This document shows, piece by piece, positions 34,869 to 40,411 of a stretch of DNA of 64,000 nt; the stretch's first letter is position 1, and the number at the start of each line of letters is the position of its first letter. Origin of the DNA: Pirellulaceae bacterium (GTDB lineage: Bacteria; Planctomycetota; Planctomycetia; Pirellulales; Pirellulaceae); assembly GCA_019636375.1 (NCBI GenBank), contig JAHBXS010000002.1:709621-773620 (forward strand), given 5' to 3'. A model generated the notes under the pieces. That model saw only the letters and a program-made list of their open reading frames with translations. It was not told the origin of the DNA and did not search any database. The position numbers and the translations under genes were made by a program.

Positions 34869-34913
34869 GTTCACGGAGTGAACGGCCACGTAGCTTTTCG
34901 CTCCGTGAAAAGG
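34869..34913. repeat. REP-like double palindrome (empty intron target)
   Basis: Two arms, TTCACGGAGTGAA and TTCGCTCCGTGAA, are joined by a centre containing GGCCACGTAGC. Each arm is itself nearly palindromic and the arms are inverted to each other. The same element, split by a group II intron between GCCACG and TAGC, is at 38357-38377 and 40391-40411. Lies in a 316-bp gap between genes that otherwise holds nothing recognisable. Confidence 0.88.
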
Positions 34914-38114: not shown

Positions 38115-38356
38115 TCGAAAAATTTACACGTTACGCCAGCAACTGGCTTGACTCGATTTTATCGTGAAAGTTTGGGCTGACGGAAGTGGCAATGGGAGCA
38201 GGAGCGATGGGAGGATTGTGAATCTTGCGATACGAACACGAAAAAACGTCAGGACCTCATCACCTTCATGGAATTTTATTTTTGTCTAGCCTGGTTTCGA
38301 ATGCCGCCAAACAACGAAAAACATTCAAAGTGTTCTGCGGTTCTTATGAGTGCCTT

Positions 38357-38377
38357 TTCACGGAGTGAAAAGCCACG
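38357..38377. repeat. Left half of the intron-split REP-like palindrome
   Basis: TTTTCACGGAGTGAAAA followed by GCCACG up to base 38377, where the intron's 3' end begins. With 40391-40411 it rebuilds the same element as at 34869-34913. Confidence 0.88.
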
Positions 38378-38393
38378 ATCGGGGTAGGGAGAG

Positions 38394-39797
38394 TCAACTG
38401 ACTCCCCCTCCCGCCGAACCGTACGTGCGGTTTTCCCGCATACGGCTCTCCACTTGGTAGTTCTCGATAGTTTGGACGAACTGAGCATGAGCCTGCACCA
38501 GGCTGTAGAGCCCAAGCTCAGAGAAGTAGCGGTTTGGCCAGCGGCATGTACGAGGTTGTCGGTCGGGATTGGTGCGGTGGCGTTTCAGAAGGATTCGTCG
38601 CAGACGACTGCGGAGCCAACTGTCATAGTCACCGTAGACATTCCAGAAACAATGGCGAAAGTAGTGAAACCAGCCGCGCATCATCTGATTCAATTGCTTG
38701 ACGATATCCTCAAGCGAATCGCCAGATGTGCGTGGAGTTAACTCGCGGACACGATCCATGAATTTCTGTTGGCTTTTGGCTCGCGGAAACCGGAACCGGC
38801 CCCGAAATACATAACCCAGAAATGCAAAGCTTTGGTCGCGACTATCGACAATCTGGGTCTTGTCCGGATGCAGGGTCAAGCCTGCTTCGCGAACCCATTG
38901 CTGGACGACTGCCAAAGCTTGTTCCGCTTCAGCTTGCGTCTTGCAGAGGATCACGAAGTCATCCGCATAGCGTACCATCTCATAGCCCTGTTCGGCCATG
39001 TGATGATCCAGCGGATTGAGATACAGGTTGGATAGCATCGGGGAGAGAACCGCGCCTTGCGGGACGCCCGTTTCCGGTGTCCAGCGGCTCAGTTCTGAAA
39101 CCACTTCTTGATCGAGGTACATCTTGATCAGTCGCAGGACTGCATGATCCGAAACTTTCTGCTTCACCAACGCGAGCAGTCGGTCTTTGGGGATCGTATC
39201 GAAGTAGCCTTTCAAGTCGGCATCTACCACGAAGACGTTGCCCTCTTCGAGTAATTGCTCGACGCAACGAAGTGCGCCATGACAGCCTCTGCCTCGGCGG
39301 AAGCCAAAGCTGCGAGGATGAAAGGTGTGATCAAAGATCGGTTCCAAGACATCCAGTAACGCGGTTTGAACCACTCGGTCGCGAACGGTAGGAATACCCA
39401 ACGGGCGGGTTTCCTTCGTTCCCGGCTTGGGAATCTCCACCCGGCGTACAGGCTGCGGCCGATAGGTTCCGGCTTTCAGTTCCTGTTGCAGTTTGGTGAT
39501 CTCGGCCAGAAGTTCGTCGTCGAGTTGTTCTACCGTTTGTCGGTCTACTCCAGCGGCTCCTTGATTGGTAATGACCTTCGAGGCCGCCCATCTCAAGTTT
39601 CGCTCACTGAAGACTTTATCGTACAGCGTGTGCCATTTGCCTCCTCTCACTTTGTTTGCCAAAAGTGTCTTCAACATGCTTTCTGTCCAAACCATCGACG
39701 ATGCCCATTGGTCAATGCTCAATGGTTCCGTAGCCGGAGTAGCCCCGAAAGGCACTGTGACTTGCGACGGTTTAAGGTCTTTGGATTGTTTGGTCAT
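38394..39797 (-). CDS. ltrA: Group II intron reverse transcriptase/maturase
   Basis: 467 residues. The RT domain has RPLGIPTVRDRVVQTAL, VVDADLKGYFDTI, GVPQGAVLSPMLSNLYLNPL and the active-site YADD (residues 277-280). Domain X (maturase) follows with MMRGWFHYFRHCFWN. No HNH endonuclase domain is visible after it. The last residues (ESRMRENRTYGSAGG) are encoded by the domain V RNA helix itself, so the ORF reads into the catalytic RNA. The protein would promote splicing and target-primed insertion. Confidence 0.95.
   Translation of the reverse strand: MTKQSKDLKPSQVTVPFGATPATEPLSIDQWASSMVWTESMLKTLLANKVRGGKWHTLYDKVFSERNLRWAASKVITNQGAAGVDRQTVEQLDDELLAEITKLQQELKAGTYRPQPVRRVEIPKPGTKETRPLGIPTVRDRVVQTALLDVLEPIFDHTFHPRSFGFRRGRGCHGALRCVEQLLEEGNVFVVDADLKGYFDTIPKDRLLALVKQKVSDHAVLRLIKMYLDQEVVSELSRWTPETGVPQGAVLSPMLSNLYLNPLDHHMAEQGYEMVRYADDFVILCKTQAEAEQALAVVQQWVREAGLTLHPDKTQIVDSRDQSFAFLGYVFRGRFRFPRAKSQQKFMDRVRELTPRTSGDSLEDIVKQLNQMMRGWFHYFRHCFWNVYGDYDSWLRSRLRRILLKRHRTNPDRQPRTCRWPNRYFSELGLYSLVQAHAQFVQTIENYQVESRMRENRTYGSAGGGVS
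38416..38448 (-). ncRNA. Group II intron domain V
   Basis: Read on the minus strand, a 33-base hairpin begins GAGCCGTATGCGGG, has a GAAA tetraloop and closes with CCGCACGTACGGTTC. It carries the AGC catalytic triad at its base and the conserved bulge region of domain V. A GC-rich domain VI hairpin follows directly (roughly 38383-38410). Confidence 0.93.
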
Positions 39798-40390
39798 ACT
39801 TGCATCTACCTTGCTGCCGCCCTTGGCTCCACCGCGTTTTGCTGCACGGCTTCACGGCTACTATGGCGGCTCTGACTGCTGTTCCTGGTGCTTATCTTCT
39901 CGCTACATTGACGATCAGTCTTTTCGATACCAAGCTGCCTGTTCGTCGCACAGCTTGACCTGGAGTTGGTCGCCCAGTATCTCCGGCTGGGATTGATCAC
40001 GAGAATCGACCCTGGCCAAGAACAGCTCTCCCTTCTTATCGCGTTTAACCTTCCTTCCATTCCGCACTCAACCACCGCATTGCCATTTCCAAACTTCAGC
40101 ATCAGCGCGTTACTGCACCCAAAGTTCGTTCGCTGTGTCTATCCTGCGGAAAAGTCGATACAAAGGACTACAGGACGGTTCGTCGCACAGCGAAGGGTTC
40201 GGACTTTGCCAGCTTCCTCCCCGACAGGCTTGGCCGAATCAGTTTCACTTTCGTTACGGACTGGAATTTCTCCTCAGGTTGCTCCTCACCCTCCCTCGCG
40301 GGAACGCAATTACCACTTTCGAATACAGGGCGGTAACGTTACCCTGGTCAGGACTTTCACCCGACTGATTAAACGCCTTCAAAGGCGCAC

Positions 40391-40411
40391 TAGCTTTTCA
40401 CTCCGTGAACG
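40391..40411. repeat. Right half of the intron-split REP-like palindrome
   Basis: TAGCTTTTCACTCCGTGAAC, starting at the base after the intron's 5' end. It is the counterpart of 38357-38377. Confidence 0.88.

Follow-up and report, generated by a model that had tools for sequence, protein, structure and literature searches.

A probable group IIC intron with REP-like hairpin targets in a Pirellulaceae genome

The split palindrome and the intron within it

The window, that is, the whole 64-kb stretch of Pirellulaceae DNA analysed here (G000:C2:709621-773620), contains a minus-strand group II intron of 2013 nt (40390 to 38378) that interrupts a double palindrome, in agreement with the first-pass annotation, which had described an intron of this size within a REP-like palindrome. 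The ends of the intron, 5' GTGCGCC (40390) and CCCCGAT 3' (38378), are common to 18 copies in the genome, and its terminal part (38450-38378, minus strand) comprises the ribozyme domains V and VI, matching the Rfam Intron_gpII model (RF00029) with 60.7 bits against a cut-off of 40. With the intron removed, the minus-strand flanks read GTTCACGGAGTGAAAAGCTA^CGTGGCTTTTCACTCCGTGAAAAGGC and contain the join AAAAGCTA^CGTGGC exactly as it had been proposed. On this strand, the 5' exon carries a hairpin with a GGA loop (40395..40411), which is the first palindrome of the split REP pair, and ends with the bases GCTA (IBS1, 40391..40394), and the 3' exon begins with a C (IBS3, 38377) followed by the second palindrome and its GTGG tag (38355..38376). 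An empty double palindrome, to which no strand is assigned, is located at 34869..34913 and reads TTTTCACGGAGCGAAAAGCTACGTGGCCGTTCACTCCGTGAACGG on the minus strand; it had been taken for the same sequence as the joined flanks and indeed belongs to the same family, but is not identical, with changes in the outer arm and at one stem position.

The intron encodes a protein of 467 aa (38394..39797, minus strand) that was identified as a group II reverse transcriptase (RT)/maturase (group_II_RT_mat, 382.7 bits) and contains the RVT_1 and GIIM domains only, with no HNH or other endonuclease domain. Its nearest solved relatives are the GsI-IIC RT and MarathonRT (7uim), with 237 and 228 bits, compared with 158 bits to the maturase RT of 6me0, which we take to be of class IIB, and 134 bits to LtrA (IIA); the class of the RT is assigned by its best solved relatives. 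In the RT frame, the stop codon found directly upstream of domain V in nearly all relatives has been lost (38394-38450, minus strand), and the frame reads through domains V and VI, ending 16 nt short of the intron 3' end.

Several further properties bear on the class of the intron. Insertion directly after a DNA hairpin was found at all 18 sites in this genome and for most relatives, the EBS1-IBS1 pairing is short, and EBS3-IBS3 is a single pair. As regards an EBS2-IBS2 pairing, which class IIC lacks, the 5' exon upstream of IBS1 is occupied by the hairpin. Because the RT resembles those of GsI-IIC and MarathonRT and has no endonuclease domain, the target is a hairpin and EBS1 is short, the intron in the window is classified, on sequence features, as group IIC.

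Copies, target sites and the repeat family

The genome harbors 18 copies of the intron, 17 of them full and one split by a further insertion, and the number of domain V matches is also 18. Fifteen copies show no difference along their entire length, one is scored with a single change and one has lost a base; the intron has multiplied recently. The split copy (L164, C1:1195514-1198968) is interrupted by an insert of ~1.4 kb, the longest frames of which, judged by eye, resemble a mutator-type (IS256-like) transposase. Flanks were read for all 18 copies, and 16 of these reside in a GTRG-tagged, REP-like double-palindrome family, TTCACGGAGTGAA, so the proposal that an interspersed repeat serves as the home of the intron holds. 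The other two are found in different tagged hairpin repeats, with the targets CACAGGCT-GGA-AGCCTGTG then CCA^C (L040) and CTTTCGC-GGA-GCGAAAG then GCGA^C (L045); these repeats recur in the genome at low copy, partly as inverted pairs. The first-pass annotation had regarded copies in unrelated targets as evidence against its reading, and such copies exist in a formal sense only, given that both off-family sites are hairpins with a GTGG or GTCG tag.

At all 18 sites, the 5' exon consists of a hairpin followed by GNYA or GCGA (GCCA at 9 sites, GCTA at 6, GTTA at 2 and GCGA at 1), and IBS3 is C throughout. The first hairpin is sound at every site, once with a G-T stem pair, and one site has the loop AGA in place of GGA. 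Five of the 18 sites (L032, L039, L040, L044 and L045) have a defective second palindrome or none at all, so the recognized target is a single hairpin with the four bases that follow rather than the double palindrome. The rules of insertion are not strict, as the changed loop and a single EBS1 mismatch illustrate.

The repeat itself is abundant. At ≤3 mismatches, 204 genomic matches to the half-site pattern TTCACGGAGTGAANNGNYACGTRGC were counted while the reversed-pattern control gave 0, so the abundance of half-sites is not due to chance. In a sample of 40 evenly spread 20-kb stretches (0.8 Mb), 33 half-sites were found in 22 clusters, from which we estimate ~140 empty double palindromes in the genome compared with the 16 that are filled; such a genome-wide count had been suggested in the annotation. 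The TTCACGGAGTGAA repeat is almost absent from the nearest species of the genus. Read on the opposite strand, each half consists of GTRG, one base and a hairpin, and the two halves are arranged head to head. RAYT-type REPs are defined by GTAG or GTGG located 0-2 nt before the stem (PMC6006769), and GTAG repeats are known from Planctomycetes (PMC3733652). The form of RAYT-type REPs and BIMEs is thus present, with a GTRG tag, a hairpin, inverted pairs, high copy number and a mostly intergenic location. In the sample, GTRG-tagged hairpins number 48 compared with 4-16 for four other tags, although the 48 includes overlapping stem choices repeatedly and the controls do not. A search for RAYT-like genes yielded 9 matches in the genome, none above the cut-off, and no cognate RAYT was found, in that none of the 9 is flanked by the TTCACGGAGTGAA family; "REP-like" is therefore the safer name for the repeat. 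One of the RAYT-like genes (L101, C3:594396-594599) is bordered on each side by GTAG-tagged hairpins that belong to a different family.

The intron copies are mostly intergenic. One of them (C2:65832-67843; L158:7410-11966) lies in the sense direction inside an 847-codon penicillin-acylase frame, the two sides of which were matched separately to the same family. The REP at this site is in frame, shortly before a GSNQWG motif expected to form the start of the beta chain, and thus is likely to be in the spacer; production of the enzyme from this gene would require splicing. The expectation that the repeat offers many safe sites accordingly describes a tendency: most copies avoid genes, but one splits the penicillin acylase, and only about one palindrome in ten contains an intron. 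Furthermore, 17 of the 18 copies are on the minus strand of their contigs (C1-C7), though the target is offered on both strands; the probability of such agreement, calculated by hand, is ~0.002. Only contig C2 has a clear GC skew; there the intron lies on the G-rich strand, which is what insertion into the lagging-strand template would predict. Outside C2 the skew is too weak, and a replication-strand bias could not be shown.

Guide sequences and relatives in other genomes

The guide sequences were sought in an alignment of 13 introns with known 5' ends, in which each column in turn was scored for its ability to pair with the final four bases of the exon. The best column reached 96 of 104 points, the next best 57 and the best of any column in 300 shuffles 66; furthermore, a score of 96 was reached in none of 20,000 reassignments of exons to introns. 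This column, which covaries with the 5' exons of 12 relatives, corresponds in the window's intron to UGGC at intron positions 180-183, within an 11-nt loop (40208..40211, minus strand), and is designated EBS1. Its partners in the relatives include AGCC-GGCT (L139, L140), GUGC-GCAC (L133), GAGU-ACUC (L135), UCGC-GCGA (L141) and UAGC-GCUA (L134). EBS3 is the base at intron position 319 (G in the window's intron; 40072, minus strand), which matches the first 3'-exon base in 12 of 13 introns, with one exception; G occurs with C, and the matches include three deviating introns, with U opposite A (L133) and A opposite T (L139, L140).

UGGC pairs with GCCA and, by G-U pairing, also with GCUA and GUUA, which accounts for 17 of the 18 sites in the genome, and the GCGA site has one mismatch. 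An EBS/IBS pairing with the AAGCTA exon end, which the first-pass annotation had advised looking for, therefore exists. The bases read by EBS1, GCYA, are complementary to the TRGC part of the tag (GTRG) by which RAYT-type REPs are defined, and the copies apparently sit in these palindromes because the four-letter RNA guide matches the tag of the palindromes.

Searches with the RT identified three relatives in the collection and, order-wide, 12 further genomes, and the repeats of the host were examined in three genomes with relatives (G208, G084 and G247). All three introns of G208 are inserted in CTCGGGGC-TTCC-GCCCCGAG-CTA^C, and this palindrome has 17 matches in the genome; L141 resides in a palindrome with 43 matches in G084, and L142 in one with 25 matches in G247. 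The changes in EBS1 are matched in the repeated palindromes of these three other genomes. In family f1, most members have an exon complementary to a GTRG tag. A clade with members from f8, f7 and f17 and one f1 member mostly uses other hairpins and other EBS1 sequences, so the REP habit extends beyond this genome but is not general to the clade. In G149 (C20), two relatives (L138 and L145) are arranged in tandem, the 3' end of one intron joining the 5' end of the other exactly, without an intervening exon.

Target choice, alternative explanations and known systems

Very probably, the element is a recently multiplied group IIC intron with a REP as its target, namely a short DNA hairpin that precedes the complement of the REP tag. 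The target strand would have to present the extruded hairpin, with GCYA as the next four bases, to which EBS1 (UGGC) pairs, and then a C paired by the G of EBS3. As a RAYT-type REP consists of GTRG and a hairpin after it, the opposite strand always presents hairpin-(G)CYA^C, and any GTRG-tagged REP is therefore a possible target, whatever the sequence of its stem; an inverted REP pair would provide one site per strand. By analogy with known IIC biology (PMC4424553), the RNP may reverse-splice into the target strand, and the endonuclease-less RT probably copies the intron from a primer at the replication fork (PMC4424553). The intron would presumably still be able to move and to splice today.

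An ordinary IIC intron inserted at intrinsic terminators, with the palindromes being the terminators of the genome, would conform to the class IIC rule of insertion at terminator hairpins (PMC4424553, PMC8919778) and to the mostly intergenic location of the palindromes. However, none of the 18 hairpins is followed by a T-run, the sequence there being mostly GCYACGTRGC, and neither palindrome in the 64-kb window was called as a terminator. This reading is further weakened because the intron has no consistent orientation relative to genes, the nearest upstream frame running in its direction at about half of the sites and opposite to it at the rest, including the copy in the window. Insertion into terminators, which is typical of IIC introns and not required, as the attC introns demonstrate, is not seen here, and with neither a T-run nor an orientation the explanation was rejected as very unlikely.

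The double palindrome could also be carried or made by the intron, its flanks being duplicated or mobilized together with it, so that the repeat spread along with the intron; among the searched genomes of the genus, both are expanded in this species only. We give this almost no credence, since the excess of empty over filled sites already contradicts it, the flanks of the filled copies vary in their arms, in the tag and in the second palindrome, and two copies reside in other repeat families. Spread of the 18 copies by homologous recombination or gene conversion between repeats, instead of retrotransposition, would suit the near identity of the copies and the likeness of the target repeats, but is highly improbable considering that homology outside the intron amounts to just ~15-25 bp and is imperfect, with no long shared flanks, and that the two copies in other repeats have exactly the same junctions.

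Guided retrotransposition into tagged hairpins, the reading preferred here, would explain how an RNA-guided retroelement attains a high copy number despite a very short guide: the intron reads a tag that has already been set at more than 100 sites by another repeat system, REP. It also allows the target rules of IIC introns to be deduced from a single genome, in which the filled and empty sites together provide a clean test of the hairpin against base pairing. A broader and more tentative idea, plausible but one that we stop short of favoring, is that a Pirellulaceae IIC lineage has become a specialized REP parasite, in which EBS1 maintains its complementarity to the RAYT tag, so that guide and tag would co-evolve in each host, and that the intron uses the single-stranded hairpins on which RAYT transposases act.

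Hairpin targeting by IIC introns is known for terminators and attC sites. No description of an IIC intron that resides almost exclusively in REPs, or of an EBS1 that recognizes their tag, was found in open-licence papers, although this does not prove that none exists; an IIC lineage homing almost only into REPs, with an identified guide, looks new as a variant. Group IIC introns such as B.h.I1, O.i.I1 and GsI-IIC (general features in PMC4424553 and PMC8919778) share with this intron an RT without an endonuclease domain, a target made of a hairpin and a short IBS1, the EBS3-IBS3 pair and multi-copy spread; unlike them, it uses GTRG-tagged REPs in place of terminators with a T-run, and its EBS1 is complementary to the REP tag. 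The IIC-attC introns of integrons are likewise specialized on repeated hairpin-forming DNA (attC; PMC4424553), whereas the repeat here is a REP family across the chromosome, with no integron. The GTAG-tagged REPs (PMC3733652, PMC6006769) have the same GTRG tag, hairpin and inverted pairs, the difference being the lack of a cognate RAYT beside the TTCACGGAGTGAA family. Other mobile elements that land in REPs, ISPpu9, ISPpu10 and ISPa11 (PMC1525189), are DNA transposons, whereas the present element is an RNA-guided retroelement. In Pseudomonas putida KT2440, 2 of 9 group II introns have been tabulated as located in REPs (Tobes and Pareja 2006, PMC1525189), that is, 22% and as a table entry only; here, by contrast, 16 of 18 copies are in one REP family, the guide has been identified, and the remaining two copies are also in tagged hairpins.
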